This document shows, in pieces, positions 17,445 to 46,986 of a DNA stretch of 64,000 nt (positions are counted from its first letter, which is position 1; each line of letters starts with the position of its first letter). The position numbers and the translations under genes were made by a program. The DNA is from an uncultured Actinomycetes bacterium (lineage in GTDB: Bacteria; Actinomycetota; Actinomycetes; Mycobacteriales; Nakamurellaceae): assembly GCA_937926105.1 (NCBI GenBank), contig CALANS010000064.1, forward strand, positions 1 through 64,000, in the 5' to 3' direction. The notes under the pieces are model-generated. The model saw only the letters and a program-made list of their open reading frames with translations. It was not told the DNA's origin and made no database searches.

Positions 17445-17697
17445 CGCACCCGGTCACCGCCCGGGACGTCCCGCCCAGCGGGTCCCCCCGGGGGCCAACC
17501 AGCCCCGCCCCGGCGTCCCGACGGGGCCCTTCCGAAGGCCGAGGATCCTCGTGTCGCCGTCCCATGAGGTGGGACCGGCGTCTCACGACGACTTTGTGCC
17601 TGTGTTCACAAGTGGCTAAGGTCGTGCCTATCGGCGGCGCGCACGAGCCGGTCGCCGACACGCTAGCGGGGCGACCCGCCGGACCTTTCGTCAGTAG
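17445..17697. other. Intergenic region before rex
   Basis: No gene is visible in these 253 bases. They hold several GC-rich dyads just after the glutaredoxin-like gene (around 17485-17560) that could terminate its transcript. The probable Rex operator at 17594-17611 follows. Confidence 0.5.
17594..17611. promoter_or_regulatory. Probable Rex operator upstream of rex-hemD
   Basis: TTGTGCC-TGTG-TTCACAA has two inverted 7-base half-sites spaced by four bases, the geometry of the Rex site TTGTGAA-N4-TTCACAA. The right half matches 7 of 7 and the left half 5 of 7. It lies 87 bases before the rex start, so rex probably regulates itself and hemD according to NADH/NAD+. Confidence 0.8.
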
Positions 17698-18426
17698 GTG
17701 AGCGCAACGGTGTCTCCGAACGCCGCCCCGGGCCGCCCCGGTCCCGCGCTGCGCGCCATCCCCGAGGCCACGGTGGCTCGGCTGGCCGGATACCTGCGCG
17801 TGCTGTCCGGCTCCGACGCCGCGTCTGCGAGCCCCGCCGGCGCAACTGGGCCCGAGAGCACCATCTCATCGGAGGAACTCGCCGCGCTGGCCGGGGTCAA
17901 CCCCGCCAAGCTGCGCAAGGACCTGTCCTACCTCGGCTCGCACGGCACTCGCGGCGTCGGCTACGACGTGGCCACCCTGCTGGACGCGCTGGAGCGCACC
18001 CTCGGGGCGCACGAGATCAACCCGGTGGCCCTGGTCGGGGTCGGGCACCTGGGCAGCGCGCTGGCGGGCTACGCCGGATTCCCGTTGCGCGGCTTTCCGA
18101 TCCGGGTGCTGCTGGACGCCGATCCGGCCAAGATCGGCAGCACAGTTGCCGGGGTGTCGGTATCCGACATTGCCGATGCCGGCCCGGTCTGCCGGGCCGC
18201 CGGAGTGACGATCGGAGTGATCGCCACTCCGGAGGCAGCCGCCCAGTTGGTCGCCGACGCCTTGGTTGCGGCCGGGGTGCGCTCCATCCTGAACTTCGCA
18301 CCGGGACGACTGGTGCTTGCCGACGATGTCGAGGTGCGGCGCATGGACCTCGCATTGGAACTGCAGATGCTGGCCTTCCACGAATCCCGTCGTGGCGGGC
18401 CCCCGGCCCATCTGGAGGCGCTGTGA
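17698..18426 (+). CDS. rex: Redox-sensing transcriptional repressor Rex
   Basis: This 242-residue protein has both Rex domains. The winged helix spans about residues 17-90 (IPEATVARLAGYLRVLS, then EELAALAGVNPAKLRKDLSY, then GTRGVGYDV). The Rossmann fold follows with the NAD(H) loop VALVGVGHLGSALAGY, and a C-terminal swapped helix (DLALELQMLAFHE) forms the dimer. Rex releases DNA when NADH is high and represses respiratory genes when NAD+ is high. GTG 17698 is assigned as start, although its ribosome site is weak. Its GTGA overlap with the hemD frame and a matching operator 87 bases upstream support an autoregulated rex-hemD unit. A second operator at 46969 points to the nuo operon. Confidence 0.93.
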   Translation: MSATVSPNAAPGRPGPALRAIPEATVARLAGYLRVLSGSDAASASPAGATGPESTISSEELAALAGVNPAKLRKDLSYLGSHGTRGVGYDVATLLDALERTLGAHEINPVALVGVGHLGSALAGYAGFPLRGFPIRVLLDADPAKIGSTVAGVSVSDIADAGPVCRAAGVTIGVIATPEAAAQLVADALVAAGVRSILNFAPGRLVLADDVEVRRMDLALELQMLAFHESRRGGPPAHLEAL

Positions 18427-18548
18427 CGACAGGAACGATCAACCCGGCCGATCTCGCGAAGGCCGGAGCCGACGGCACGGCCGGCGCCCGGCGGGACAGT
18501 ACCGCCCGCGCCGCACGAGCCGCGTCCATTCAACCGAAGGAGCAGGGC

Positions 18549-20078
18549 ATGAGCAGCGCCGTCCGCATCGGCCGGATCGCCTTCGTCGGTGCCGGGCCAG
18601 GTGACCCGGGGTTGCTGACGGTGCACGCCGCCGACACGTTGCGCCGCGCCGCGCTGCTGGTGACCGACCCCGACGTGCCGTCGGCGATCACCGAACTGGC
18701 CGGCTGCGCCGAGGTGCGGCACGCTGTTGGCGATCCCGGCCAGGTGGCCGAGTCGCTGGTCGCGGCCGCTCAGGACGGCGGGCCGGTGGTGCGACTGGTC
18801 GCCGGGGACGTGCTCACCGCCGACCCGGTCGTCACCGAGATCCAGGCCGTCGCGGCCAGCGAGGTGCCCTTCGACGTGGTTCCGGGTCTGCCGGCCGCCA
18901 CCGCCGCGGCCGCCTACGCCGGAATCCCGGTCGGGTCCGTGCACACGGTGGCCGACGTGCGCGCCGCCGCCGACCAGTCCGCCTGGTCGAGGTTGGCAGG
19001 TGCGCCAGGCACGCTGCTGCTGCAGGCCGCCTCCGGCCACCTGGCCGACACCGCCGCCGCGCTCGCCGAGGCGGGGATCGCCCCCGCCACGCCGGCCTGC
19101 GTCACCGCCGGCGCCACGTTGCCCACCCAGCGCACGGTGGAGGGCACCGTCGCCACCCTGGATGCCATCGGCCGGGAGTTGACCGGCCCGCTGGTGGTGA
19201 CCGTTGGCGCTCGGGTCTCACAGCGAGAGTCGTTGTCCTGGTGGGAGTCTCGTTCGCTATATGGCTGGCGCGTGCTGGTGCCGCAGACCCGTGACCGGGA
19301 TCAGGACATGCTGATCCGGCTGCGCACCCATGGCGCTATCCCGGAGACGGTGCGCACCGTCGCCGTCGAGCCGCCGCGCAGCCCCGCCCAGATGGAGCGT
19401 GCCGTCAAGGGGCTGGTGGACGGCCGCTACCAGTGGCTGGTGTTCACCTCGATGAATGCGGTCCGGGCGATCTGGGAGAAGTTCACCGAGTTTGGCCTGG
19501 ACGCCCGGGCGTTCTCCGGGGTGAAGATCGCCTGCGTGGATCCGGCCACTGGCGCCGCGGTGCGCGGGCTGGGGATCGAGCCGGACCTGGTCTCCGGGCA
19601 CCCGCAGTCGTCGGCCGGGCTGCTGGACGACTTCCCGGAGTTCGACGACGTCTTCGACCCGGTGGACCGGGTGTTGCTACCTCGCGCCGACATCGCCACC
19701 GAGACGCTGGCCGCCGGGTTGTCCGAGCGGGGTTGGGAGGTGGACGACGTGACCGCCTACCGCACCGTGCGTGCCTCGCCGCCCGCGGCGCCGATCCGGG
19801 AGGCCATCAAGACCGGCGGGTTCGACGCGGTTTGCTTCACATCGGCGTCCACGGTGCGCAACCTGGTGGGCATCGCCGGTAAGCCGCATGCGCGGACCAT
19901 CGTGGCCTGCCTGGGGCCGAAGACCGCCGAGACCGCGCGGGAGTTCGGGCTGCGGGTGGACGTGCTGCCCGAGCAGCCCGAGATCGTTCAACTGGTCGAG
20001 GGCCTGGCCCGGCACGCCACCCGGCTGCGCGCGGAGGGCGCGCTGCCGCCACCGCGCAAGTCGCCCCGGCGCAAGTAG
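18549..20078 (+). CDS. hemD: Uroporphyrinogen-III synthase fused to a uroporphyrinogen methyltransferase-like domain
   Basis: The N-terminal half is a SAM-dependent tetrapyrrole methyltransferase domain ([20 protein letters not shown], then [18 protein letters not shown]). The usual GGDP loop is VRLVAGDVL here, a variant I recall from mycobacterial HemD, so methylation activity is uncertain. The C-terminal half, from about residue 240, is uroporphyrinogen-III synthase ([19 protein letters not shown], then [15 protein letters not shown], then [16 protein letters not shown]), which closes hydroxymethylbilane to uroporphyrinogen III. ATG 18549 is preferred (AAGGAG 7 bases upstream, 509 residues). 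An in-frame GTG at 18423 overlaps the rex stop and would add 42 residues. hemA, hemC and hemB, usual neighbours in actinobacteria, are absent here. Confidence 0.9.
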
Positions 20079-20161
20079 TCACGACGCAAGTAGCGCATCC
20101 GGTCGAATCGGTGTGGCCGATGTGCCGCGCCGGCTCGCCCGGAGCGGATACCGTTGCGCGC

Positions 20162-20911
20162 ATGACGACACCCCAGAACCCGGGCGACCCCTGGTCCGGG
20201 CAGCAGCCGGCATCCCCGCAGCAGGGCTATCCGTACCAGGGCCAGCAGGCCGGGTACCCCCAGCAGGCCGGGTACCCCCAGCAGGGCCAGCAGCCCGGCT
20301 ATCCGCAGGCCGGGTACCCGCAGCAGGCCTACCAGCAGCCGGGCTACCCCGGGCAGCCCGCGGGCTATGGCATGCCCGCCTACCCTGGTGGGCCGATGCC
20401 CGGCTACCGGCCCGACCCCGGCCCCGCCCCGGCCCGGCCGACGACCGTGGTCGCCGCGTTCTGGCTGTGGATCGCCGCGGCCGCGGTGGCCCTGGTCAGC
20501 GGCATCCTGGTGTTCACCAGCGACATCTGGGCCGACGCCCTGGCCGCCGCCGGCTCGGCCAGCACCGTGTCCGGCGTGTCGCTGGACACCCTGATCACCA
20601 CCGCCAAGACCATCGCGATCGTCATGATGGTGATCTTCGTGGTGCTCTACGTGTTCTTCGCGCTCAAGATGTATGCCGGCCGGAACTGGGCGCGCGTGGT
20701 GCTGACCGTGCTGGCCGGGCTGAGCATCATCGGGGGGTTCTCGGCGCAGGCGGAGGTCACCTTCGACGGCACGGTGTATGCGGTGGGCTCCAGCGAGGCG
20801 TTGCGCTGGGTGCAGGTCGGGCTGGCGGTCGTCGGGCTCATCCTGGTCTGGCTCACGCCCTCGAATGCCTACTTCACCGCCATGAAGAACCGTCGGATGT
20901 ACGTGCGCTGA
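20162..20911 (+). CDS. Four-helix membrane protein with Gly/Tyr/Pro/Gln-rich N-terminal repeats
   Basis: This 249-residue protein starts at ATG 20162. Residues 1-85 are cytosolic-type low complexity, built from GYPQQ-like units repeated about ten times and followed by Pro/Gly-rich sequence. Residues 90-245 hold four membrane segments ([68 protein letters not shown]). Proteins of this layout are common and uncharacterised in actinobacteria; the Q/Y/P repeats may bind partners or condense. It lies 83 bases after hemD and is followed by two more membrane proteins, so the three may form one unit. Confidence 0.8.
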
Positions 20912-20978
20912 CCATCGCTGCAGTACCCGGCATCGCGCCGAGGCGAGTCGGCGTCCGGTCACCCGGTAGGTTCTAGGG

Positions 20979-21614
20979 GTGACGAGTTCCAACGACCGAC
21001 CCGCCGCCCGTCGGGGGTTCCTCGCCTCGCTGTCCGCCGCGCTCACCCCGCAGCCGCTGCCGGAGGACGACACCGGGCCGCTGACGGCCCCCCGGGGTGT
21101 GCTGGTGGCGGTGGTGCTGTCGATCATCGCGGGCGCCATGTACCTGTTCAGCGGCGGGGTGAGCGTGGTCGGCGTCGACCAGATGATGAAGAACGCACGC
21201 ACCGACTACACCGCCCAGGTGTCGGAGTGCACCAACAACTACGGCGGCATCGGTACCACCGCGATCACGGCCCCGAGCCCGACCGGCGTCGAGGCGACCT
21301 GCCAGCGGCTGACCGTGGTGGGCGACAGCGACTGGGACGCCTACCGCACCGCCAGCATCGTGGTGGCGGTGGCGTTTATGGTGCTGGGTGCGCTGCTGGT
21401 GCTGGGCGGCTGGTTCCTGCGTGCCGGTCGTGCCTGGGCGCGCCGCACCGTGGTGGGGGTGGTCATCATCACCGTGCTGGCAGCGCTCCTGCTGAGCATG
21501 TCCACCCCGTTCATCCTGGCCGCGACGCTGCTCGCGATGGTCGCGGTGGTGCTGTGCTACCTGGCCTCCGGGGCGACGTACTTCCTACGGGTCAAGGCGC
21601 GCAGGCACGCATGA
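20979..21614 (+). CDS. Hypothetical four-helix membrane protein
   Basis: This 211-residue protein starts at GTG 20979. It has a polar basic N-terminus, a first membrane segment (GVLVAVVLSIIAGAMYLF), and an outside loop with two cysteines (SECTNNYG and ATCQRL) that may form a disulfide. Three further segments follow (ASIVVAVAFMVLGALLVLGG, VVGVVIITVLAALLLSM, ILAATLLAMVAVVLCYLA), and the end is a basic tail. I do not recognise a family. It shares its orientation and general shape with the preceding four-helix protein. Confidence 0.75.
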   Translation: MTSSNDRPAARRGFLASLSAALTPQPLPEDDTGPLTAPRGVLVAVVLSIIAGAMYLFSGGVSVVGVDQMMKNARTDYTAQVSECTNNYGGIGTTAITAPSPTGVEATCQRLTVVGDSDWDAYRTASIVVAVAFMVLGALLVLGGWFLRAGRAWARRTVVGVVIITVLAALLLSMSTPFILAATLLAMVAVVLCYLASGATYFLRVKARRHA

Positions 21615-21659
21615 CGCGACGCGGGCACCGGTGAACGAGCCGAAGGGCGGGACGCATCG

Positions 21660-22031
21660 GTGAGCCCGCACCCAACGGCCGGGCAGCCGGTCGAGGCGTC
21701 GTCTGTGCCGTGGCGGGGCGCGCTGCTGGCCCATCGCGGTCTGCGGACCGGGCTCGCGGTGCGGGCCGGTCTCGCATTGGCCGGCGCTGCGGTGCTGCTG
21801 GTCGGCGGGATCTGGATGGCCCGCTCCGCGATCGTGGACCATGTGTTCCCGCCCGTCGTCGCGGCCGACTCCCGCACTGTCATCACCTCCTACTCCGGCC
21901 CCTGGCTGGCCGGTGCGATCGGGGTCGGGGCGGTGGCCGGACTGTTGCTGGTGGTAGCCGTCACAGACCTGTGGCGCCGTCGACTGATCGGCCGCGATCT
22001 GCGCACGTCAACGGCGGTGTCGGCGGGCTGA
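21660..22031 (+). CDS. Small two-helix membrane protein
   Basis: This 123-residue protein starts at GTG 21660. It has two membrane segments (LAVRAGLALAGAAVLLVGGIW and WLAGAIGVGAVAGLLLVVAV) joined by an outside loop of about 30 residues, with short basic tails inside. No family is recognised. The spacing to its neighbours (45 bases before, 75 after) suggests it belongs to the same transcription unit as the genes around it. Confidence 0.65.
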   Translation: MSPHPTAGQPVEASSVPWRGALLAHRGLRTGLAVRAGLALAGAAVLLVGGIWMARSAIVDHVFPPVVAADSRTVITSYSGPWLAGAIGVGAVAGLLLVVAVTDLWRRRLIGRDLRTSTAVSAG

Positions 22032-22106
22032 CCCGGCGGCCGCCAACTGGCCCGGCACCCGGAGCCCGCGCGACCATGCGCGGACCTCACAACCTCACCT
22101 GGGACA

Positions 22107-22844
22107 ATGGTCCACGTGCCCGCCGCTGTGTCTCCCGCCCAGCCCGACGCGGGTGGCCCCGCTGCCGCCCCTGTTCGGGCGGTGGTGCACCTGCTGCGGC
22201 ATGGGCTGGTGGAAAACCCGGACGGGGTGCTGTACGGCCGGTTGCCGGACTTTCACCTGTCCACCGTCGGCAAGGCGATGGCCGAGCGGATCGCCGATCA
22301 CCTGGCGGGCGCCGACATCGGCTACCTGGCGGCGTCCCCGCTGGAACGTGCCGCCGAGACCGCTGCGCCGCTCGCCGCGACGCTCCGGATGGCCGTCGTC
22401 ACCGATATCCGGTTGATCGAACCCACCAATGTCTTCGAGGGCACCCGGTTCTCCGTGGGTGACGGGGTACTGCGCCGGCCCGCGCACTGGCGGCAGGTGC
22501 GCAATCCGTTCACCCCGTCCTGGGGCGAGCCCTACCTGCAGATCGCACACCGGATGCTCGGGGCCGCCTATGCGGCGGTGACGGTGCTCACCGAGCGGGC
22601 GGGCGCCGGAGCGGACGGCCGTGAAGCGGTGCTGGTCAGCCACCAACTGCCGATCTGGACCCTGCGGCGATACCTGGAGGGGAGGCGGCTGTGGCACAAC
22701 CCCTCCCGCCGGCAGTGCGCGCTGGCATCCCTGACATCTCTGACCTTCGTCGACGGGGTGTTCACCGGGTTGCGCTACACCGAGCCGGCCGCCGACCTGG
22801 TGCCGGCCACGGCATCCGCAGCGTCCGGGTCGACCGGCGCATGA
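22107..22844 (+). CDS. Histidine phosphatase superfamily protein (phosphoglycerate mutase-like)
   Basis: This 245-residue protein has the catalytic LLRHGLVENPDG loop (phosphoacceptor histidine) near residue 30, GRLPDFHLSTVGKAMAERIA, an arginine in ASPLERAAETAAPLA, and the second histidine in VLVSHQLPIW. The residues needed for phosphoryl transfer are present; the substrate is unknown. A phosphatase of this type precedes the tlpA/ccdA/resB/ccsA genes in mycobacteria as well (recalled Rv0525). Its stop overlaps the resA start (ATGA), so it is translated with the cytochrome c assembly genes. Confidence 0.88.
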   Translation: MVHVPAAVSPAQPDAGGPAAAPVRAVVHLLRHGLVENPDGVLYGRLPDFHLSTVGKAMAERIADHLAGADIGYLAASPLERAAETAAPLAATLRMAVVTDIRLIEPTNVFEGTRFSVGDGVLRRPAHWRQVRNPFTPSWGEPYLQIAHRMLGAAYAAVTVLTERAGAGADGREAVLVSHQLPIWTLRRYLEGRRLWHNPSRRQCALASLTSLTFVDGVFTGLRYTEPAADLVPATASAASGSTGA

Positions 22845-23479
22845 GGTCCCGCCGGAGGCTCGCCAGCGCGATAGCCGGGATGCTGGCCCCAGTGCTGGCC
22901 GCAGTGCTGGCCCTGGGTGCGCTGGCCGGCTGCTCCACCGGTGACGACGCCGCGGTGTGGGGTGGCTCGTTCACGTTCGTCTCGCCCGGCGGCAAGCAAG
23001 AGATGTCCTACCCGCCGGCCGAGCGCGGCACCGTGGGCTCGCTGTCCGGCCCGAACCTGATGACCGACCAGACGATCGCACTGGACGACTACGCCAACAA
23101 GGTGGTGGTGATCAACTTCTGGGGGTCCTGGTGTGCGCCGTGCCGGGAGGAGCAGCCCGGGCTGAACCTGATCGCCACCCAGCTCGCCGATCAGGGCGTG
23201 CAGTTCCTCGGCGTCGACCTGGAGAAGGGCCAGGGTCAAAGCGCCGGGCAGGACTTTCACCGCAACTTCAAGGTGCCCTACCCGTCGATCTACGACCCGA
23301 TGATGCGCACCATCCTGTCGCTGCGCGGCTATCCCGCCACGGCGATCCCGTCCATGGTGGTGCTGGACCGGCAGCATCGGGTGGCGCAGATCTGGCTGGC
23401 CTCGGCGACCGTGCCGATGGGTGCCATCAAGTCCACCATCGCGGACATCGCAGCCGAACCAGCTGATGGCGGGGCGTAG
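22841..23479 (+). CDS. resA: Thiol-disulfide oxidoreductase lipoprotein of cytochrome c assembly (ResA/TlpA-like)
   Basis: This 212-residue protein starts at ATG 22841, which overlaps the previous stop. It has a lipoprotein signal (hydrophobic stretch ending LAGC, lipidated Cys near residue 28). The extracytoplasmic thioredoxin domain has VVVINFWGSWCAPCREEQPG, with the C-A-P-C active site, and the cis-proline segment YPATAIPSMVVLD. In System II it reduces the heme-binding cysteines of apocytochrome c using electrons from CcdA. It is followed directly by ccdA, resB and ccsB, and all four genes overlap or nearly overlap. Confidence 0.92.
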   Translation: MRSRRRLASAIAGMLAPVLAAVLALGALAGCSTGDDAAVWGGSFTFVSPGGKQEMSYPPAERGTVGSLSGPNLMTDQTIALDDYANKVVVINFWGSWCAPCREEQPGLNLIATQLADQGVQFLGVDLEKGQGQSAGQDFHRNFKVPYPSIYDPMMRTILSLRGYPATAIPSMVVLDRQHRVAQIWLASATVPMGAIKSTIADIAAEPADGGA

Positions 23480-24408
23480 TGAGCGCGATGATGCTCGCAC
23501 CGGCACTGGCCTCCGGTGGGGTGACCGACACGGTGATCTCCGGGCCGTTCCTGCTGGCGGGGCTGCTGGCGATCGCCGCCGGGGTCGTCTCGTTCGCCTC
23601 GCCGTGCGTGGTGCCGCTGGTGCCGGGTTACCTGTCGTATCTGGCGGGGCTGGTCGGCGCCGAGGCCGCCGGTGGGTCCGGTGCCGGCACGCCCGGCGTC
23701 GGGTCCGGCGCTGGTTCCGGGCTGCCCGCCCCGGGCTCGGGGGCCGCCGGTGCGGCCCTCGCGACCCGATCCCGGGTCCGCTGGCGTGCCGTGGGCGCGA
23801 CCGGCCTGTTCGTGGCCGGCTTCTCGCTGGTGTTCCTGGCCGAGAGCGCGCTGGCCCTGGGCGTGTACACGACGCTGATCCGCAACCAGGAGCTGCTGAT
23901 GCGGGTCTCCGGCGTCATCGCCATCGTGATGGGCTTGGTACTGGCCGGGGCCGTGCCACTGCTGCAGCGCGAGTGGCGTTTCCACCTGCGTCCGGGCGGC
24001 GCGGCGGCTCGATCCGGCGGAACCGGTTCGGGCCGGTCCGGGGCCGGCAAACGCAGCCGGATCTGGGGTGCCCCGGTGCTCGGAGCGGCATTTGGCACCG
24101 GCTGGCTGGCCTGCACCAGCCCGACCCTCGCCGGCATCTTGGCGCTGTCCTCGGCGACCGAGTGGAACGGCAACGCGGTGCGTGGCCTGCTGCTGGTGCT
24201 GCTGTACTGCGCGGGCCTGGGAGTGCCGTTCGTGATGCTGGCCATCGGATTCGGCTGGGCCGGTACGGCGCTGGCCTTCCTGCGCCGGCACGCCCGCGGC
24301 ATCCAGCTCGGCGGCGCCGCGGTGCTGATGTTGATCGGCGTGTTGATGGTCACCGGCGCCTGGGGTGCCGTGCTATCCCGGCTGCAGGGTGCGGCGGTGC
24401 TGCTGTGA
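23479..24408 (+). CDS. ccdA: Cytochrome c biogenesis thiol transporter CcdA
   Basis: This 309-residue integral membrane protein of the DsbD/CcdA family starts at GTG 23479, sharing one base with the resA stop. It has six membrane segments. The conserved cysteines lie in SPCVVPLVPGYLSY (segment 1) and GTGWLACTSPTLAGIL (segment 4); they shuttle reducing power from cytosolic thioredoxin to ResA. Two Gly/Ala/Ser-rich loops, at about residues 60-100 and 165-195, lengthen it beyond the usual 240-260 residues. It is followed by a REP-like hairpin and then resB. Confidence 0.93.
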   Translation: MSAMMLAPALASGGVTDTVISGPFLLAGLLAIAAGVVSFASPCVVPLVPGYLSYLAGLVGAEAAGGSGAGTPGVGSGAGSGLPAPGSGAAGAALATRSRVRWRAVGATGLFVAGFSLVFLAESALALGVYTTLIRNQELLMRVSGVIAIVMGLVLAGAVPLLQREWRFHLRPGGAAARSGGTGSGRSGAGKRSRIWGAPVLGAAFGTGWLACTSPTLAGILALSSATEWNGNAVRGLLLVLLYCAGLGVPFVMLAIGFGWAGTALAFLRRHARGIQLGGAAVLMLIGVLMVTGAWGAVLSRLQGAAVLL

Positions 24409-24424
24409 GTGACGCCGGAGCGGG

Positions 24425-24490
24425 CGTGGCCCGTCGCCACGGAGTGGCAGGGCCCGGCTGCGGAGCGTGGAGCGAACGATCGGGCACTGT
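24425..24490. repeat. REP-like short dispersed repeat, copy 1
   Basis: The core CCGTCGCCACG-G-AGTGGCAGG at 24431-24451 can fold with GCCAC/GTGGC pairing. It matches 20 of 21 bases of a second copy at 46822-46842. Similarity continues into flanking sequence ending GCGAACGATCGGGCACTG here and GCGAACAATCCGGCACCG there. It lies in the ccdA-resB gap. Confidence 0.7.
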
Positions 24491-24505
24491 GACGGGAGGT
24501 CGCTG

Positions 24506-26347
24506 ATGCCGCCGCGCGATTCGGTGCGCCGGCGTACCGAGGCCCGGCTAGCGGGCAGCGGTGACGCCGATGACGGGGAGGCCCGCGCGACCGCGCCGCA
24601 GGGGCCGCGCCACCGGCTGATCGGGTTCGGTCGCGGCATCTGGCGGCAGCTGACCAGCATGCGCACCGCGCTGATCCTGCTGTTCCTGCTGGCGCTGGCT
24701 TCGCTGCCGGGCGCGCTGCTGCCGCAATGGCACCTGAATCAGGCCAAGACGGCCCAGTACAAGCTCGATCACCCCACGCTGGGCCCGATCCTGGACAAGC
24801 TCGGCTTCTTCGACGTCTTCGCCTCGCCGTGGTATTCGGCGATCTACCTGCTGCTGGCGATCTCCCTGGTCGGTTGTCTGACGCCGCGCACCGTCGAGTT
24901 CGCCCGGCAGTGGCGGGCCAAGCCCGTGGCGACGCCGCGGAACCTGGCGCGGCTGCCGCACCACGCCACCGTCACCGTCGATGGCGACCCACACCAGGTC
25001 GCCAAGCGCATTCAGGACAGCCTGCGGCACCGGGGGATCGGCGGCTGGCGCAACACCGTCCGGGAGGAGACCGGCCAGGCGGGAACCGGCGGGTCGACAG
25101 CATCCCCAGCGGCCCCGGTCGTGGTCACGGTGTCCGCGGAGCGCGGCTACCTGCGTGAGGTCGGCAACCTGCTGTTCCACTTCTCGGTGCTCGGGCTGCT
25201 TGCCGCCATGGCCGTCGGCTCCCTGTTCGGCTACAGCGGCTCGTTGCTCGTCACCGCCGGAAACGGCTTCTGCTCCTCGGCACCGGTCAACTACGACAAC
25301 TTCCGCCCCGGACGGATGGTCGACGGCACCGACATGGCGCCGTTCTGCGTCGACGTCACCGCCTTTCATGCCGACTACACCGTGGACGGCATGGCCCGCT
25401 CGTTCGACGCCGAGCTGCGGGTGCAGTCCGGGTCCGACGTGGGCTCCTCCCGCTGGATCGACCATGTGCTGCACGTCAACGACCCGTTGCGGATCGCCGG
25501 CCAGCGGCTGTACCTGCTCGGCCACGGCTACGTCCCGGAGTTCAGCGTGCGCTACCCCGACGGGTCGGAACGCCGGTACTCGGCACCGTTCCAACCCACC
25601 GACTCGATGTTCACCTCGCAGGGCGTCGTGAAGATCACCGACCCGCCCGGCTACACCGGCGCGGCCGCCCGCACTCACCAGCTGGCGATCGTCGGGATCT
25701 TCGCCCCCAGCGGCGTGGTGAACGGCGGCGTGCTGAGTTCTGCATACCCCGACCTGCTGGCCCCGGCGGTCGCCGTCGAGGTGTACCAGGGGGACCTGGG
25801 GCTGGACAGCGGCCAGCCGCAGAACGTCTTCACGCTGGACAACGAGCAGGTGGACAAGGGCTTGCTCGTGTCGCAGGGGCGCGCCAACCTGACGGTCGGA
25901 CAGACCTTCAAGCTCGACGACGGCACCGTAATCACCTTCACCGGCGCGAATCAGTACGTGTCGCTGCAGACCTCCTACGATCCCGCTCAGGGGTGGGCGC
26001 TGGTCTTCGCGATCGCGCTGGTCGTCGGGCTGCTCGGCTCGCTGACCATCAAGCGTCGCCGGGTCTGGTACCGGGTCCGGGCCGCCGATCCCGCCGGGCC
26101 TACGCTGGGCGCGAACGGTACCGCCCACCCCCGCAGCGTCGTGCAGGTCGGCGGGCTGGCCCGGACCGATCAGGCCGGCTACGGCGCCGAGTTCGACTCG
26201 CTGGTCGCGTTAGCGGGTGCCGGCGCCGAGCAGCACGACGTCGCTGAGCATGTCGACGGCGCTGGCGGTGCCGGTGTCGGTGTCGGGGACAATGCACGAA
26301 GTGTCGACGCGGCCGGCATCGGGCCGGGGCGGACGAAGGGCGAGTGA
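24506..26347 (+). CDS. resB: Cytochrome c biogenesis protein ResB
   Basis: This 613-residue membrane protein starts at ATG 24506 (GGGAGG six bases upstream). It has two N-terminal membrane helices (TALILLFLLALASLPGALLP and YSAIYLLLAISLVGCL), a third near residue 230 (LLFHFSVLGLLAAMAVGSL), a large outside domain with conserved Arg/Asp segments, and a last helix (ALVFAIALVVGLLGSLTI). It partners CcsB in the System II heme lyase that attaches heme to apocytochrome c outside the membrane. The polar C-terminal tail of about 100 residues is low in complexity. It ends in a GTGA overlap with ccsB, which indicates co-translation. Confidence 0.93.
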   Translation: MPPRDSVRRRTEARLAGSGDADDGEARATAPQGPRHRLIGFGRGIWRQLTSMRTALILLFLLALASLPGALLPQWHLNQAKTAQYKLDHPTLGPILDKLGFFDVFASPWYSAIYLLLAISLVGCLTPRTVEFARQWRAKPVATPRNLARLPHHATVTVDGDPHQVAKRIQDSLRHRGIGGWRNTVREETGQAGTGGSTASPAAPVVVTVSAERGYLREVGNLLFHFSVLGLLAAMAVGSLFGYSGSLLVTAGNGFCSSAPVNYDNFRPGRMVDGTDMAPFCVDVTAFHADYTVDGMARSFDAELRVQSGSDVGSSRWIDHVLHVNDPLRIAGQRLYLLGHGYVPEFSVRYPDGSERRYSAPFQPTDSMFTSQGVVKITDPPGYTGAAARTHQLAIVGIFAPSGVVNGGVLSSAYPDLLAPAVAVEVYQGDLGLDSGQPQNVFTLDNEQVDKGLLVSQGRANLTVGQTFKLDDGTVITFTGANQYVSLQTSYDPAQGWALVFAIALVVGLLGSLTIKRRRVWYRVRAADPAGPTLGANGTAHPRSVVQVGGLARTDQAGYGAEFDSLVALAGAGAEQHDVAEHVDGAGGAGVGVGDNARSVDAAGIGPGRTKGE

Positions 26348-27399
26348 CGGTGATGGACGCGAACCTGTCGGGACTGTCGGATCTGGCGTTCGAGGGCGCC
26401 GCGGCCGGCTATCTGATGGCGCTGGTGTGCCACGCGGTGGAGACCGCCTCCCGCCGGGCGCGCCGGGTGGAGCCTGCCGCGGCGACGGCCGGCGTCCCCA
26501 TCGGGTCCGCGGCCGCGGCCCTAGGAGGGGCCTCGGCGGGTGCGGTCGGAAGCACCGCGGTGCTGGCCCCCCCGCTGAGCGGATCCGGGCAACCGGCCCC
26601 GGTCCGGCCGGCGCGGGTGCCGTTCGGGGAGCGGTTCGGCCGCGCCGCCGTCCTCGTCACCGCCATCGGGTTCGCCTGCCACGTGCTCGCGTTGGTGTTC
26701 CGGGGCCTCGCCGCGCAGCGGCCGCCGTGGGGCAACATGTACGAGTTCACGCTGATGATCACCGGGGCCGCGGTGGCCAGCTGGCTGATCGTGCTGTGGC
26801 GCGCCAAGGCCCGGCTGATGGGCATCTACGTGATGACGCCGATCGTGGTGCTGGTGTTCCTGGCCGGCACCGTGTTGTACACCCGGTCGGCGCCGCTGCT
26901 GCCGGTGCTGAACTCCTACTGGCTGATCATCCACGTGGCCGCGATCTCGCTGTCCTCCGGCGTGCTGATGCTGTCCGGGTTGGCCTCCGCCGCGTATCTG
27001 GTACGGGACCGGCACGATCGCCGGGTCGCCGCCGCCGGCAGTGCCGGAGGTGACGCCCCCGCCGGGGTCGTCACCAGGCTCCCGTCACTGGACAAGCTGG
27101 ACCGGATCGCCTACCGCAGCGCCATCGCGGCGTTTCCGTTCTACACGTTCGCGATCATGGCCGGTGCCATGTGGGCGGAGGTCGCCTGGGGCTCCTACTG
27201 GAGTTGGGACCCGAAGGAGACCGTGGCCCTGGTCAGCTGGGTGGTCTACGCCGGGTACCTGCACGCCCGGGCGACGGCGGGCTGGCGGGGTCGCCCCGCC
27301 GCGTGGATCAGTGTGGTGGGCCTGGCCACGATCATCTTCAACCTGTTCTTCGTGAACATGGTGATCTCCGGCCTGCACTCCTACGCCGGGCTGAACTAG
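26344..27399 (+). CDS. ccsB: Heme transport/lyase protein CcsB (CcsA family)
   Basis: This 351-residue multi-span protein starts at GTG 26344, overlapping the resB stop. The tryptophan-rich heme-handling WWD motif is intact (WGSYWSWDPKETVALVSW), and conserved histidines lie in the flanking helices (LIIHVAAISLS and the terminal GLHSYAGLN). It moves heme across the membrane and, with ResB, joins it to the CxxCH motif of cytochromes c. A Gly/Ala/Pro-rich cytoplasmic loop (residues about 40-95) sits between the first two helices and is specific to this protein. Confidence 0.94.
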   Translation: MTVMDANLSGLSDLAFEGAAAGYLMALVCHAVETASRRARRVEPAAATAGVPIGSAAAALGGASAGAVGSTAVLAPPLSGSGQPAPVRPARVPFGERFGRAAVLVTAIGFACHVLALVFRGLAAQRPPWGNMYEFTLMITGAAVASWLIVLWRAKARLMGIYVMTPIVVLVFLAGTVLYTRSAPLLPVLNSYWLIIHVAAISLSSGVLMLSGLASAAYLVRDRHDRRVAAAGSAGGDAPAGVVTRLPSLDKLDRIAYRSAIAAFPFYTFAIMAGAMWAEVAWGSYWSWDPKETVALVSWVVYAGYLHARATAGWRGRPAAWISVVGLATIIFNLFFVNMVISGLHSYAGLN

Positions 27400-27405
27400 C
27401 CGATC

Positions 27406-27627: not shown

Positions 27628-27767
27628 CGGCCACCTCCCTTGTCGCCTTCAGCCTACGCAAGGCGCGGCACCTCGGTGACCGGGCGCCGGGAGGCCGGGC
27701 ACTGAGACACCGCGCACTGAGGCACCGGGCACTGGACGCTGGAGCGGCAGGGCACGGGGGCGAAATG

Positions 27768-27816: not shown

Positions 27817-27825
27817 GATCGGTGA

Positions 27826-37130: not shown

Positions 37131-37200
37131 GCCATCGACGCCGTTCCTCCGTCCGCGAACAACGGGGCCGGGGTGGGCATCGGAGCCCTACTGTTGGCCG

Positions 37201-38031: not shown

Positions 38032-38059
38032 CGGACACAAGAGGCCAGGTCGGCGGGTC

Positions 38060-38713: not shown

Positions 38714-38741
38714 AGCTGCCGAGGGTAGTGGCCCGGAAGCT

Positions 38742-39491: not shown

Positions 39492-39571
39492 CAGCTGGTC
39501 GCGCAGTGTCCGGGCGGGACGGGTGCGCGGTCGTGGCCAGCGGCCGTTCCGGCGGATTGTTCGGCACGGTC

Positions 39572-40776: not shown

Positions 40777-40794
40777 ACTATGCACCGTAGAGTA
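40776..40794 (-). promoter_or_regulatory. Possible PadR operator at its own start
   Basis: TACTATG (40776-40782) and TAGAGTA (40788-40794) form an imperfect dyad (5 of 7 positions) around the start codon and presumed promoter of the PadR gene. This position would suit self-repression. The match to any known PadR site is only general. Confidence 0.3.
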
Positions 40795-40968
40795 CTGCGA
40801 GGTGAAGAGGAAGGCGCGTGTGGTGGCGACGGCACCGAGCCGGAGTGCGACCCACTGCATCCCACTGGGCGGGGCGCATGGGGGCGACGAGCGGCCGGCC
40901 GTGTGGGCCACAATCGTCACCGTGCCTCCATCGCCTCCGCCCGGTCAGCCGCAGCCCGGCCCAGCCCG

Positions 40969-42723
40969 ATGAACCCGTCGACGGCGCAGGCCACCGTGCT
41001 GGTGGACGAGCTGATCGCGTGTGGCGTGACCGACGCCGTGCTATGTCCCGGCTCGCGCAATGCGCCGCTGTCGATGGCGCTGCATGCCGCCGACTCGGCC
41101 GGTCGGCTCCGGCTGCACGTGCGCATCGACGAACGCACTGCCGGGTTCCTGGCGTTGGGCCTGGCACGTGGATCCGGCCGCCCGGTGCCCGTCGCGACCA
41201 CGTCCGGCTCCGCGGTGGCCAACCTGCACCCGGCGGTGCTGGAGGCACACCACGGCCGGGTACCGCTGATCGTGCTGTCCGCTGACCGGCCGCCGCAGCT
41301 GCATGACGTGGGCGCCAACCAGACCGTCGACCAGCGGTCGGTCTTCGGCTCCGGCGTACTGCGACTGTGGCACGAGTTCGCGGTTCCGGCGTTGGCGCCC
41401 GGGCAGAACGCACACTGGAGATCGATGGTCTGCCGGGCGGTTGCCGCGGCCGCCGGAACCCATACCGGACGCGCCGCGCTGCCGGGACCCGCACAGCTGA
41501 ACATCCCACTGGCTGAGCCGCTGCTGCCCGACGCCGGTGGGGACACCGTGATCCTGTCCGGTATCGAATGGCCGGAGCCGCTGACCGGCCGCAATGGTCC
41601 CTGGACCAGGATCGGGGAGAGCGCCGAGCCGGGCGACGAAGGGTGGTCGGGCTCGGTCGTCCAAGGCCCGCAGCGCGCCGAGCGCTGCCTGTTCGTGGCG
41701 GACTTCGGGAGCGGCCTCGCGTCCGGTATCGCCAGCGCTGGGCACCCGGTGATCGCCGAGGCCGGTGGACTGGGCGGTGCCGAGGTGCTGGCTAGCGGCA
41801 TACACCTGTTGGCGGACAAAGACTTTATGTGCGCACACCGGCCCGATCGAGTGATCGCGCTCGGTCGGCCCACGCTGTTTCGAGCGGTGACGGCGCTGCT
41901 GGCCGACCCTTCGATCCCGGTGGATGTGGTGGCGCCGCTGACTGACTATCCGGATCCATCCGGCACCGCTCGGACGGTCGCCGGCTGGCTTGGGCCGATT
42001 TCCGATCCGGCAGACCCGGATTGGCTGAACTCCTGGCGCGCCGCCGACGCCGCGGCCAGAGCCGCAGTCCGGTCGGCGCTGGCAGGCCGGGACATCGACT
42101 CCTCACCGGTACTGGCTCGCACCCTGGCCGCCGCGCTCCCGGACGGCGCCACCCTGGTGGTCGGCTCCTCTCAGCCGCCGCGGGATCTCGGCCGGTTCGC
42201 GGAGCCACGGGACGGCGTGCGGGTCGTCGCCAACCGCGGGGTGGCCGGCATCGACGGCACGATCTCCTCGGCGGTCGGTACCGCACTGGCGGCCCAGAAT
42301 GGTCGGCAGCCCGACGGCACCGGCCGGACCGTCGCGCTGCTCGGCGATCTGACCTTCCTGCACGACCTGACCGGGCTGGCGATCGGCCCGCACGAGCCGC
42401 GACCCGACCTGACCATCGTGGTCGCCAACAACGACGGGGGCGGCATCTTCACCACCCTGGAACCGGGGGACCCTGCGCATTCCCGGGCGTTCGAGCGCGT
42501 CTTCGGGACTCCGGTCGGCGCCGAGCTCGCGCCGATCGCGCGTGGGCTCGGGGTCGACCATGTGCTCGTTCGAACGGCAGACGAACTCGCGGAGGCGGTG
42601 CGACATTCCACGGGTGGGATCCGGGTGGTCGAGGTGCCGGTGATCCGCACCGACCTGCGGGAACTGCTGCAGGCGGTGACGATGGCGGTGAACGCCGCGC
42701 TCGCGGACCTGCGTGGCGACTGA
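40969..42723 (+). CDS. menD: SEPHCHC synthase (2-succinyl-5-enolpyruvyl-6-hydroxy-3-cyclohexene-1-carboxylate synthase)
   Basis: This 584-residue thiamine-diphosphate enzyme starts at ATG 40969. The N-terminal half has the catalytic glutamate segment (RLRLHVRIDERTAGFLALGL) and VLCPGSRNAPLSMALH. The C-terminal half has the ThDP-binding region (ALLGDLTFLHDLTGLAIG, then TIVVANNDGGGIFTTLE) and NRGVAGIDGTISSAVG. It adds succinyl-semialdehyde derived from 2-oxoglutarate to isochorismate, the first committed step of menaquinone synthesis. No strong ribosome site is visible. It is divergent from the PadR unit and convergent with the HNH gene. Confidence 0.94.
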   Translation: MNPSTAQATVLVDELIACGVTDAVLCPGSRNAPLSMALHAADSAGRLRLHVRIDERTAGFLALGLARGSGRPVPVATTSGSAVANLHPAVLEAHHGRVPLIVLSADRPPQLHDVGANQTVDQRSVFGSGVLRLWHEFAVPALAPGQNAHWRSMVCRAVAAAAGTHTGRAALPGPAQLNIPLAEPLLPDAGGDTVILSGIEWPEPLTGRNGPWTRIGESAEPGDEGWSGSVVQGPQRAERCLFVADFGSGLASGIASAGHPVIAEAGGLGGAEVLASGIHLLADKDFMCAHRPDRVIALGRPTLFRAVTALLADPSIPVDVVAPLTDYPDPSGTARTVAGWLGPISDPADPDWLNSWRAADAAARAAVRSALAGRDIDSSPVLARTLAAALPDGATLVVGSSQPPRDLGRFAEPRDGVRVVANRGVAGIDGTISSAVGTALAAQNGRQPDGTGRTVALLGDLTFLHDLTGLAIGPHEPRPDLTIVVANNDGGGIFTTLEPGDPAHSRAFERVFGTPVGAELAPIARGLGVDHVLVRTADELAEAVRHSTGGIRVVEVPVIRTDLRELLQAVTMAVNAALADLRGD

Positions 42724-42736
42724 GCGGTTCCGGGCC

Positions 42737-44512
42737 TCATGCGGCCGCCCGGCCTGTGTCGTGGTCGGCTCCGCCGCCGGGTGAGGGCTGGAACAGTACT
42801 CCGACGGCGTCGGCGAGGCTGAACTTCTCACCCGCCCACAGCGGGCGGATCGCGACCGCTTCCGGATCATGCCAACCCGCGGATCCGTCGAGCCCATGCC
42901 AGAGAATCCATTCGTCATGCTTCCATCCCGGCGCGCCGGAGGGCAGTCGGTCGCCCCGCAGCGGGTCGCCCTCGCGAGTGGTGAAATGCCAATGCGGGGC
43001 TCCGGCTACCGAGTCCGTGGCGTAGCCGATCACGACGCCGCCCTCGTGGCAGGCCATGTGATGAAACCTGCAGAGCAGGATCAGGTTGTCGGGATCGGTG
43101 CGGCCGCCGTGCATCCAATGCCGAACATGGTGTGCCTCAAGGTGTGAGATGCGAGTGCAGGACGGAAACTGGCAGCCGCCGTCCCGGATGGCCAGCAATC
43201 GGCGCTGCGCGGCGGACACCGTTCGTCTGCGGCGGCCGTGAGCGAGCACGACGCCACCCTCACCGCGGATGATGCCGAGAATGCCGGCGTTGCAAGCGAG
43301 TCGAGCGGCCGTCTGCGTCGCGATCCCTGCCACCCCCGCGACCTGGCAGCAGTCGGCCGGAATCGCCGACCGGTCGAGGGTCACCGACGCCGACCGGTGT
43401 GCTGGTGCTGGTGCGTTCCTTGTTGCACCGCTGTCGGCGTTCCCGCGGGAACGCTTGGTGCTGGGGTTGTTGGTGCTGGGCTGTGAGTTGGGCTCGCTCA
43501 ACAGGTGCTCGGCGTTGACATGAATGACCACCGTCGTGCGGTCTTCACCGGATCGATCCTGTGGAGCGGCAGACAAATACCCGCGAGCCCACTGCAGCAA
43601 CATGTCGGCCGGATCGACCGGCGCCGGAGCCGGTTCGGGAGCGGATTCATGGGTCTCAACCACCGTGCCGTTGTGATCGCCGTATCGGGTGGCATGCTCT
43701 GCACCGGGCCGGTTCCCGGTGGGATCGTCACCGCCGTCGTTGCTTTGGTCCCTTGTGTCCTGGTCGCTCGTGCTGCAGTCGCCTGCTCTGCTGCCGGGAT
43801 CCCGCCCGGACAGCCTGATCAGGTCGTCCCTGGCCGCCTCCAACGCGGCGATCACGGCCGCGCCCTCCTCTGCGGGTAACCGTGCCGACAGCACCACACT
43901 GCCGTCGTCGTCGACCCTCCACATGGCACGGCGCCGCTGTTCCTGGCCGGCCCTGGCGCCGTCGGACTGCCGGAACCCGCGCACCGTGCGCGCGAGCTGC
44001 GACGCGGTCGCGGTCCTGGCCAGCTCCACCAAGGTGGCCTCGTCGACCCGGTCCACGACGCGGGTGATCTCGCGGATCTTGGCGTACGACAGCCGCCCGG
44101 CGGCCATCTCGGCAGAGACCAGCGGCAGATCCTGCAAGGCGTGTGCCACCCGCACATGCTCGCGCGCGGTACCTGTTGCCATGGAGCAGGTCCAGGCAAT
44201 CCAGTGGGCACACGACCTGATTCCCACGCCGGCCCAGCCTTCCCGCCGGTCAAATTCGGCGATCAGCTGTAGCCAGTGGAAGGTCGCCTGCGCCATCCGG
44301 GTGGCCAGGGCACAAATCCGCGCCCCCAGCACATCGACCGGCAGATCGTGATCGGCGGCTGCCCAGTCGACACCAGCGGGACCGACTTGTACGGCCCGCA
44401 GCGCGCCCGCCGCTCGTCGACGGGTACGCGCCCGACCGACGGAATCGCTGCCTTCCGGCTCGCTCGGTTCTCGCAGATCGTCTACGGACCTCGCCGTTAC
44501 TCCGTCGCTCAT
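42737..44512 (-). CDS. DUF222 / HNH endonuclease domain protein (REP13E12 type)
   Basis: This 591-residue protein has the DUF222 region (VDVLGARICALATRMAQATF, then GRLSYAKIREITRVVDRVDE, then ATASQLARTVRGFRQSD), a long Ser/Asp/Asn-rich linker, and a C-terminal HNH domain (CQFPSCTRISHLEAHHVRHW, then GGRTDPDNLILLCRFHH). The zinc cysteine and catalytic histidines are present. Such proteins are multi-copy in actinobacteria, where they are linked to REP13E12-like repeats. They probably cut DNA, but their biology is poorly known. It lies between menD and menF in opposite orientation to menD, so it may be an insertion into the men cluster. Confidence 0.88.
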   Translation of the reverse strand: MSDGVTARSVDDLREPSEPEGSDSVGRARTRRRAAGALRAVQVGPAGVDWAAADHDLPVDVLGARICALATRMAQATFHWLQLIAEFDRREGWAGVGIRSCAHWIAWTCSMATGTAREHVRVAHALQDLPLVSAEMAAGRLSYAKIREITRVVDRVDEATLVELARTATASQLARTVRGFRQSDGARAGQEQRRRAMWRVDDDGSVVLSARLPAEEGAAVIAALEAARDDLIRLSGRDPGSRAGDCSTSDQDTRDQSNDGGDDPTGNRPGAEHATRYGDHNGTVVETHESAPEPAPAPVDPADMLLQWARGYLSAAPQDRSGEDRTTVVIHVNAEHLLSEPNSQPSTNNPSTKRSRGNADSGATRNAPAPAHRSASVTLDRSAIPADCCQVAGVAGIATQTAARLACNAGILGIIRGEGGVVLAHGRRRRTVSAAQRRLLAIRDGGCQFPSCTRISHLEAHHVRHWMHGGRTDPDNLILLCRFHHMACHEGGVVIGYATDSVAGAPHWHFTTREGDPLRGDRLPSGAPGWKHDEWILWHGLDGSAGWHDPEAVAIRPLWAGEKFSLADAVGVLFQPSPGGGADHDTGRAAA

Positions 44513-44764
44513 CCGAACCTCCTCGTACGCATGTCTTGATAACTAGCACGGTATCGGGAGGGTCTGACACTGCTGGTCGTCAGCGGAGGCCGCACTCGGG
44601 ATCCGTATACCCCGTTGCTCGAGCCATCCCGGAGGGCCTCGAAGCAACTACCCGCCCGGTATGCCCGAAAGGCCGTTCCCGCGGGAACGTCCCGCGGCGG
44701 CGCTTGGCGTTCGCTGGACCCGAGGCCCGCCCGCCGGTGAGTTGCCGGGCGTGGGCCTATCGGC

Positions 44765-46003
44765 TCAGCCCTCCAGGGCGTCCCGTACCGGCACCATCTT
44801 GATCTGCGCCTCGCGCGCCTCGGTTGCCGGATCGGAGTCGGCGACGATGCCGCAGCCGGCCATCAGGCGTACCGAGGTGCCGGAGACCTCCGCGCAGCGC
44901 AGCGCGATTGCGAATTCCCCGTCACCGCGGGAATCCAGCCAGCCCACCGGCGCCGCGTAGCGCCCGCGGGCGTCCGGCTCCAGTTCCGCGATCATCCGCA
45001 GCGCTACATCGGTGGGTGTGCCGCCCACAGCCGCGGTCGGGTGCAGCAGCGCCGCCAGTTCCAGGACGGAGGGGACATCCCGGTCTGGCGCCAGGGTGCC
45101 GCTGATGTCGGTCGCCAGGTGGGTCAGGTTGGCCAGGCCGAGCGCGCTCGGGCGGGCGGGCACGTCCAGCGCGTCCGTCACCGCCTTCAGCGCGTCGGCC
45201 ACCGACTGCACCGCGAACGCATGCTCGCCGAGGTCCTTGGCGCTGGCCAACAGGTGCGCCGCCACCCGCGGTGGGGTGTCGTCGCCGGTCGCATCCGGCC
45301 AGGCTGTCCCGGCTAGCACCCGGGAGGTCACCGCCAGGCCGCGGCGCCGGATCAGCATCTCCGGGCTGGCACCCACCAGGCCGCCCACCGCGAAGGCCGC
45401 ACAACTGGGGTACCGGCGGGCCAGCCGGGCCAGCAGGTACCGCTCATCCACCGGATGCTGGGTCGTCGCCTGCAGCCCGTGCGCCAGCACCACCTTGGCA
45501 GCCTCGCCGGCCCGGATCCGGTCGATGGCCCGAGCCACGGCCGCGGTGAACCCGGTCGCGGAGAGTGCCGCGTCGCCATAGCGCACCTGACCGGGCGCCG
45601 TCACCGCCGAGGGGTCGCGCAACGCCGGGCGCTCGCCGATGATGGTGACGAACGAGACGCCGTCCACCCGGCCCAGCACCGTCTGGGGTATGACAGCCAC
45701 CGATGGGTCGTCCGGTGAGAATCCGAGTGAGACGAAGCACACCGGCCCACTGCCGGGCGCCTGGATATCGTCGGCCACCACGATCTGCTCCAGCTGCCAG
45801 GCGTACCAGCGGGCGATCTGCTCGGCGGCGTCCGGGGCGGTGACGGTGATCGTCGCGTGCTGCCCCCAGCCGACCAGGCCGGCACCGCCCTGGACGAAGC
45901 ACAGCGCGCCGGTGGCTCTCGGCAGCGCGGCGATCAGGTCGTCGCCCGCCGGCGTGGCACGGGTGGCGCAGCGGGTGATCACCGACGCGGGGGAGGCGGA
46001 CAC
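44765..46003 (-). CDS. menF: Isochorismate synthase
   Basis: This 412-residue protein of the chorismate-utilising family starts at GTG 46003. It has the substrate and magnesium motifs of isochorismate synthases (VGASPEMLIRRRGLAVTSRV, then ASAKDLGEHAFAVQSV, then LHPTAAVGGTPTDVALRMI, then APVGWLDSRGDGEFAIALRC, then AGCGIVADSDPATEAREAQI). It converts chorismate to isochorismate for MenD. It could also serve siderophore synthesis, but its place between menD and menG favours menaquinone. It is divergent from menG with a 112-base gap that must contain both promoters. Confidence 0.9.
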   Translation of the reverse strand: MSASPASVITRCATRATPAGDDLIAALPRATGALCFVQGGAGLVGWGQHATITVTAPDAAEQIARWYAWQLEQIVVADDIQAPGSGPVCFVSLGFSPDDPSVAVIPQTVLGRVDGVSFVTIIGERPALRDPSAVTAPGQVRYGDAALSATGFTAAVARAIDRIRAGEAAKVVLAHGLQATTQHPVDERYLLARLARRYPSCAAFAVGGLVGASPEMLIRRRGLAVTSRVLAGTAWPDATGDDTPPRVAAHLLASAKDLGEHAFAVQSVADALKAVTDALDVPARPSALGLANLTHLATDISGTLAPDRDVPSVLELAALLHPTAAVGGTPTDVALRMIAELEPDARGRYAAPVGWLDSRGDGEFAIALRCAEVSGTSVRLMAGCGIVADSDPATEAREAQIKMVPVRDALEG

Positions 46004-46115
46004 GACGCCCAAGAATAGTCGTGCCGCTCGGGGGCAGCGTCTCGGCCGCCCTCGTGTGCCGGCGATCGGTGCGTAGGGATCCGATGCCGGCGTGCCGGTT
46101 ACTAGGCTGCTGGAC

Positions 46116-46811
46116 ATGGGACGGGCGGACCTGACGAAGAACCCGCGGCAGGTGGCCGCGATGTTCGACGATGTCGCCGGCCGCTACGACCGCACCAATA
46201 CGTTGCTCTCGCTCGGGCAGGATCGCCGCTGGCGCCGCCATGTGGTGCGGGCGCTCCGGCCAGTCCCGGGCGAGCGCATCCTGGACGTCGCCGCCGGCAC
46301 GGCGGTGTCCACCCGGGAACTGGCCAGTACCGGCGCGTGGTGCGTCGCGGCCGACTTCTCGCTGGGCATGCTGGCCGCCGGGGCCGACCGGGGCGTGCCG
46401 CGGGTCGCCGCCGATGCCATGGCGCTGCCGTTCGGGGACGGCAGTTTCGACTCGGTGACGATCGCGTTCGGGCTGCGCAACGTGGTGGATCCGGACGCGG
46501 CGCTGGCCGAGTTCGCCCGCGTCACCAAGCCGGGGGGGCAACTGCTGGTCTGCGAGTTCTCCCGGCCGCAGCTCGCTCCGCTGCGGTGGGGCTACCGCTG
46601 GTACCTGGCGCACGTGCTGCCGCGCATCGCCCGGCGGTTCTCGTCCAGTCCCGATGCCTACACGTATCTCACCGAGTCGATCGCCGCCTGGCCGGACCAG
46701 CGCGCCCTGGCCGCCCGGATCGCGCGGGCTGGGTGGGCCGAGGTGGCCTGGCGCAACATGACCTTCGGGGTGGTGGCCCTGCACCACGCGGTTCGTGAGT
46801 CGACGCCGTAG
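46116..46811 (+). CDS. menG: Demethylmenaquinone methyltransferase
   Basis: This 231-residue SAM-dependent enzyme of the UbiE/MenG family starts at ATG 46116. Family signatures are clear: [32 protein letters not shown], motif [45 protein letters not shown] and [14 protein letters not shown]. It adds the last ring methyl group to give menaquinone. After its stop come a REP-like repeat and a Rex site before the reductase gene, so menG probably ends its own transcript. Confidence 0.93.
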
Positions 46812-46815
46812 CGAG

Positions 46816-46890
46816 GCTGGACCGTCGCCACGAAGTGGCAGGTCCGGTGAGCGGAAGCTGGTAGTCCCAGTGCGAACAATCCGGCACCGT
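46816..46890. repeat. REP-like short dispersed repeat, copy 2
   Basis: CCGTCGCCACG-A-AGTGGCAGG at 46822-46842 matches copy 1 at 24431-24451 in 20 of 21 bases, with GCCAC...GTGGC pairing. The flank extends the match to about 46890. It begins five bases after the menG stop and may help end that transcript. Confidence 0.7.
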
Positions 46891-46968
46891 CTGGCAGCGG
46901 TTCGGAGCCGCACCGCAATGCGGTTAGGAACTCGGCGGCCATCATGCCTAGACTGCCCAGTAAGGACT

Positions 46969-46986
46969 TCGTGAAGAGTTTCACAA
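46969..46986 (+). promoter_or_regulatory. Probable Rex operator upstream of the menJ-nuo unit
   Basis: TCGTGAA-GAGT-TTCACAA matches the Rex consensus TTGTGAA-N4-TTCACAA at 13 of 14 half-site positions. It lies 55 bases before the reductase start. In Streptomyces, Rex controls the nuo operon, which begins here about 1.6 kb downstream. A possible -10 (TAGACT at 46949-46954) lies just upstream, so bound Rex would block transcription. Confidence 0.8.

Follow-up and report, generated by a model that had tools for sequence, protein, structure and literature searches.

How complex I genes are tied to the redox state of the cell is the question raised by a 64,000-nt stretch of DNA (the window; positions 1 to 64,000 of contig CALANS010000064.1, assembly GCA_937926105.1) from an uncultured actinomycete of the Nakamurellaceae. 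Two candidate operators of the NADH-sensing repressor Rex are found there, one preceding a rex-hemD gene pair and the other a menJ-like gene followed by the nuo genes. A sequence-only reading of the window had proposed that a single sensor controls both loci, with menJ and nuoA-N forming one transcription unit under Rex. Comparison with related genomes bears out the two operators; the nuo operon, however, is probably served by two promoters, a Rex-repressed P1 before menJ and an IdeR-controlled P2 before nuoA.

The Rex operator (ROP) was scored against TTGTGAAN4TTCACAA, with 14 half-site bases in a 7-4-7 geometry; all window features described here lie on the forward strand. ROP1, TTGTGCCTGTGTTCACAA at 17594-17611, matches 12/14 half-site bases, while ROP2, TCGTGAAGAGTTTCACAA at 46969-46986, matches 13/14 and has a single mismatch; a recheck of the letters confirmed the positions, the half-site count of the second site and the geometry of both, as previously proposed. 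A scan of the 64-kb window gave no other match with three or fewer mismatches to the consensus, where 0.24 such matches are expected by chance and two were obtained in 1 of 100 shuffles. ROP2 begins 72 nt upstream of a gene of the geranylgeranyl-reductase family (47041-48330, the menJ-like gene), in the promoter region and 15 nt past a predicted -10; the rex gene is present in the same window. The window on its own gives modest odds for the Rex sites, and it is their conservation across loci that is convincing.

A single scan with the menJ-like protein gave 582 confirmed relatives, of which the best 80 provided the loci of the menJ set. An ROP with no more than two mismatches is found upstream of menJ in 65 of these 80 loci and within the menJ-nuoA gap in 25 of the 75 that have nuoA in reach; one or the other is present in 75/80, the loci L050, L071, L075, L076 and L077 having neither. 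A chance origin of ROP2 was rejected, since none of 1620 dinucleotide-shuffled upstream regions contained an ROP. The predicted -10 of P1, TAGACT (46949-46954), lies upstream of ROP2, and a TAnnnT motif occurs 6-17 nt upstream of the menJ operator in 64 of 66 loci, window included, and at 3 nt in the remaining two (shuffled control, 114/1320). A -10-like element so shortly 5' of the operator suggests that Rex would cover the start site or the region just past it, a position comparable to that described for the cydA1 operator of Streptomyces avermitilis (PMC5355995).

Two nuoA-based samples were used to avoid selection via menJ similarity. The class sample comprises 58 loci (60 genomes, 58 with NuoA; G005 was excluded and G039 contributed two loci) and the order sample 56 (61 genomes, without G005, G039, G066 and G083, which were already covered, G005 as locus L046, and G104, whose NuoA is fragmentary). 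G078, with a Rex match far under the cut-off, was counted as Rex-less, and G102, with a split match under the cut-off, as Rex-bearing. The search covered 2.5 kb upstream of nuoA, with a shorter range for the Rex-less L200 (500 nt) and for L201, which ends within menJ. An ROP was found in 46/51 class and 48/53 order loci of Rex-bearing genomes (94/104 together), versus 0/7 and 0/3 in Rex-less ones (0/10); the mirrored pattern was found in 0/58 and 0/56 loci (0/114). ROP2 tracks Rex across genomes, and both sites thus appear to behave as Rex operators, as the sequence-only reading had supposed.

The layout of the operon indicates which gene would be the target. Of the 90 loci with an adjacent menJ, 77 have the ROP ahead of menJ, 6 have it only within the gap and 7 have none. 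Where menJ is not adjacent, the ROP lies 26-198 nt upstream of nuoA in 11 of the 15 Rex-bearing loci and is found in 0/9 Rex-less ones. Two class-sample loci of this kind carry TTGTGACCTGCTTCACAT at -113 and -115, the same sequence that was footprinted as the nuoA1 operator of S. avermitilis (PMC5355995). The position of the ROP thus tracks whichever gene comes first in the menJ-nuo unit, suggesting that nuo is the target and that menJ rides along; this shift supports nuo as a likely Rex target better than any other evidence in the analysis.

The 258-nt gap between menJ and nuoA holds a second element, an IdeR/DtxR-type half-site, TTAGGTAAGCCTCA (48449-48462). It matches 9/10 fixed bases of TTAGGN4CCTAA, within one mismatch of the single half-site, and is followed 26 nt later by TAGGGT (48489-48494), the predicted -10 of P2; the 19-bp consensus for two IdeR dimers, TTAGGTTAGSCTAACCTAA, is matched at best in 14/19 positions, or 13/19 in the other register. 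A 15-bp repeat, GGGGCAGGCCAGGTT, present in five copies (48376-48450), leads into the half-site; the repeat units resemble the left half of the site and could be slippage copies, and the repeat was not seen in the gap of locus L001.

The half-site was surveyed against single-base shuffles, excluding L007, L028, L031, L036 and L050, where nuoA was out of reach. With the grouping assigned by the author of the analysis from record titles, the best half-site reaches at least 7/10 and has a TAnnnT 25 or 26 nt behind it in 51 of the 52 Pseudonocardiales-type loci, a group that includes the window, and in 1 of 24 others, compared with 11/1520 shuffles; with at least 9/10 and the same spacing rule, the figures are 42/52, 0/24 and 0/1520. 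The looser rule fits 9/56 loci of the order sample and 1/58 of the class sample. Three loci, L286, L290 and L296, fit the rule without any ROP, so the Rex and IdeR-type modules are independent. Because the gap carries the IdeR-type half-site, the 26-nt spacing and TAGGGT, menJ-nuo in the window probably has more than one promoter, and a single Rex site as its whole control leaves out the predicted P2, which had been overlooked.

In Saccharopolyspora erythraea, TTAGGN4CCTAA has been defined as the IdeR site for a single dimer; IdeR of this species binds the nuo promoter with one dimer per DNA and a dissociation constant of ~102 nM (PMC8464063). The authors leave the role of IdeR at this promoter open, as does a review (PMC10317159). 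Six genomes were scanned for the strict pattern TTAGGN4CCTMA against a backward control, and the pattern exceeded the control in G004 (10 vs 3 forward) and G005 (10 vs 2); in G003 and G006 the excess was weak. Loci were given for 17 half-site places, and the neighbours of some of the 17 were scanned with Pfam: five of the 17 adjoin families with a known or suspected link to iron, namely ferritin, a siderophore-interacting protein, DUF2470 (at two places) and a thioesterase of a type known from siderophore synthesis, and two further places are nuoA itself. The closest relative found (G001) encodes a DtxR-family protein with both iron-dependent-repressor domains.

In the two-promoter arrangement, Rex bound to ROP2 just past the start site of P1 would block transcription while NAD+ dominates; a rise in NADH would release it and give a read-through message from menJ to nuoN. 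The same Rex would repress its own rex-hemD operon via ROP1, which overlaps the predicted -35 and the spacer. At P2, with TAGGGT taken as the -10, one iron-loaded IdeR dimer would occupy the half-site near -45 and control nuoA-N without menJ, the preferred sign being activation under sufficient iron. Complex I, rich in iron-sulphur clusters, would then be made upon NADH build-up or when iron allows. The rigid 25/26-nt distance between half-site and -10 suggests a contact with RNA polymerase and hence activation, which has somewhat better odds than repression or a road-block. A broader proposal, advanced only tentatively, is that complex I of Pseudonocardiales-type actinobacteria relies on two stacked promoters combining two signals: NADH, through Rex repression at P1 before menJ, and iron, through one IdeR dimer that would sit near -45 and activate P2 in a position-dependent way.

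Several observations weigh against this arrangement. Ten of the 104 Rex-bearing loci have no ROP, and a TTGACA-like -35 is not above shuffles at P1 (2.50 vs 2.39) or at P2 (2.17 vs 2.53). A weak -35 had been considered as an argument for activation at P2, and was dropped since P1 likewise has no TTGACA-like -35. The strict half-site shows no excess in G002 (5 and 5 vs 3 and 6) and has zero matches in the closest relative (0 vs 1 and 2), which is also the genome that supplies the DtxR-family protein, the window organism being represented by its contig alone. Furthermore, P2 is absent in L278-L283, whose NuoA is 77-88% identical to that of the window; their best half-site score is 7/10 or less, with no spaced -10.

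In a simpler scheme, a Rex-controlled P1 alone would make menJ-nuoA-N, and the gap half-site would be a functionless relic in this lineage. Six close relatives that have no half-site still have the ROP, and in the closest relative, where the strict pattern is nowhere in the genome, the box at nuoA ends in CCTTA and not in CCTAA. However, the window and L001 retain the half-site (9/10), the 26-nt spacing and TAnnnT despite a diverged gap sequence, a combination that no shuffle reproduced at this stringency, and control by Rex only is regarded as unlikely.

Proteins of the IdeR/DtxR type are mostly repressors, and this counts for a different scheme, in which iron-loaded IdeR represses P2 or acts as a road-block to P1 transcripts before nuoA; a dimer bound there, between menJ and nuoA, would be in the path of read-through. 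Nevertheless, a road-block would not need the strict spacing of 25/26 nt that the site keeps ahead of the predicted -35 region, and nuo is iron-induced in Mycobacterium tuberculosis and in Geobacter (PMC8464063); a negative role of IdeR thus seems rather improbable, and activation at P2 is retained as the preferred sign.

Read-through from P1 bears on the last alternative. Terminator-like structures were found neither in the menJ-nuoA gap of the window nor in any of the 76 gaps of sampled loci whose sole ROP precedes menJ. Among the 73 loci of the menJ set with gaps below 1000 nt (window included), a terminator-like hairpin follows menJ in 16 of 22 with a gap ROP, compared with 2 of 51 without, one of these two being the half-site palindrome itself and the other a weak 6-bp stem. 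The association, led by Saccharothrix and Lentzea, was set aside, since it was seen in 0/7 gap-ROP loci of an independent sample; Fisher values from this part of the analysis do not correct for common ancestry of the loci. A division into separate units, with Rex controlling menJ only and nuoA depending on P2 only, could draw on these hairpins and on the conserved promoter-like module ahead of nuoA, but it is the least credible scheme and a very doubtful one, given the gap of the window, the failure of the association to repeat, and the ROP directly ahead of nuoA where menJ is absent, which marks nuo as the conserved target. What stands of the proposed single Rex unit is that the ROP follows the first gene and that no terminator-like structure intervenes; a single promoter for it is improbable, the gap having a separate promoter-like module. 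As a side observation, the menJ-nuoA gap of Saccharothrix and Lentzea holds a pair of perfect Rex operators at a distance of 32 bp, behind a strong hairpin after menJ; the loci with a double ROP in the gap are L027, L032, L034, L037, L039, L041, L044, L046, L047, L051, L056, L057 and L059.

At the other operator, the rex gene (17698-18426) matches NCBIfam NF003992 with 296 bits (cut-off 226), and its product resembles solved Rex structures, e.g. 2dt5 and 3ikt. The predicted -35 of rex, TTGTGC (17594-17599), is the first hexamer of ROP1 and is followed after 17 nt by the predicted -10, TAAGGT (17617-17622); ROP1 thus overlaps the predicted rex promoter, as in an autoregulated operon. Of 30 genomes searched, 27 have rex above the cut-off, and all 27 loci carry an upstream ROP with up to three mismatches (one in 12, two in 12, three in 3); TAnnnT is found 16-18 nt past the first ROP hexamer in 28/28 rex promoters, window included. 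The 3' end of rex is overlapped by a gene for a fusion of tetrapyrrole methyltransferase and uroporphyrinogen-III synthase (HemD) (18423-20078; Pfam TP_methylase and HEM4); the Rex site thus lies upstream of rex-hemD, as proposed earlier.

The supposed link to heme synthesis holds as far as this uroporphyrinogen-III methyltransferase/synthase fusion is concerned, but is too broad a term for the lineage: neither hemA nor hemC lies between rex and hemD in the window (17698-20078), and in the closest relative, which is collinear with the window across rex and hemD, rex and menJ share one contig while hemA and hemC are on another, C6, which has no ROP with up to two mismatches. Conversely, hemA and hemC are downstream of rex in G005 and G023, the two genomes where both were seen. 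The committed step of tetrapyrrole synthesis therefore seems to have departed from the rex operon in this lineage. Cytochrome c biogenesis genes (thioredoxin-like, ResB and cytochrome c assembly protein) lie at 22691-27399, after the rex operon and ahead of the men genes.

Two other Rex operators were observed in the closest relative. A perfect one (G001:C33:193358-193375; L081:1501-1518) sits between a divergent open reading frame, ClC-type-channel-like by eye, and a transglycosylase-like/LysM gene of the resuscitation-promoting-factor type. Another, with two mismatches (G001:C11:131943-131960; L083:1501-1518), overlaps the very start of the coding sequence of a pyridine-nucleotide-disulphide oxidoreductase, which is probably a type II NADH dehydrogenase, given a near-threshold match to the NDH2 C-terminal family.

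The menJ-like gene belongs to the geranylgeranyl-reductase superfamily of flavoenzymes (TIGR02032, 242 bits, cut-off 158.8) and lies next to menG, coding for demethylmenaquinone methyltransferase (46092-46811; NCBIfam NF001241, 356 bits, cut-off 327). Both facts favour the name menJ, which had been given earlier; the MenJ equivalog cut-off, however, is missed by far (NF045655, 232 bits vs 700), and the name is kept here as a label. The nuoA gene (48589-48963) matches NCBIfam NF005922 with 188 bits (cut-off 155); nuoB, C, D, F, G, H, J and L (49036-61802) were each confirmed individually, and the subunits E, I, K, M and N were unscanned or gave no match. In the 668-residue open reading frame at 51986-53992 the NuoF match is confined to residues 247-649, and the first 246 residues may represent a NuoE fusion or an over-extended start.

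What is already known comes from one relative each: control of nuo by Rex (PMC5355995) and binding of IdeR at nuo (PMC8464063), according to the portions of these reports available. What is added here is the class-wide arrangement with an ROP before menJ and, beside it, a predicted IdeR-type promoter of fixed spacing. In a literature search no report of a Rex operator before menJ or of joint Rex-IdeR control of nuo was recognised; the work of Brekasis and Paget (2003) and the RegPrecise study of Rex may hold part of it. The results suggest that, in this class, the operator more commonly stands before a quinone-reductase gene, linking quinone tailoring to complex I supply. The survey also answers the question of the IdeR authors on half-sites in other species and, if IdeR activates P2, it would provide a function for the half-site that its discoverers left open.

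Among known systems, the Rex regulon of S. avermitilis is the closest: its Rex binds and represses rex-hemAC1DB and nuoA1-N1, the operator consensus is identical, and its rex operator, TTGTGCACGCGTTCACAA, covers the -35, as predicted in the window (PMC5355995). Differently from the window, where the operator precedes menJ, the nuo operator of S. avermitilis is right at nuoA1 (PMC5355995); moreover, hemA and hemC are not seen beside rex in the window, and a predicted promoter with an IdeR-type half-site is added before nuoA. The ubiE-ggr-nuo locus of Actinomyces oris likewise places quinone genes, a geranylgeranyl reductase among them, next to nuo, but is described in the accessible part of its report without Rex or iron control (PMC5478893). 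Finally, the S. erythraea nuo site has the same 14-bp TTAGGN4CCTAA half-site ahead of nuo, and the Saccharopolyspora loci collected here match 13/19 of the full IdeR site, in agreement with the six mismatches stated for it (PMC8464063). That work, however, concerns binding in one species (PMC8464063), whereas here the half-site is traced by sequence through 51 of 52 related loci, at a fixed distance from a predicted -10 and beside a predicted Rex-controlled promoter.

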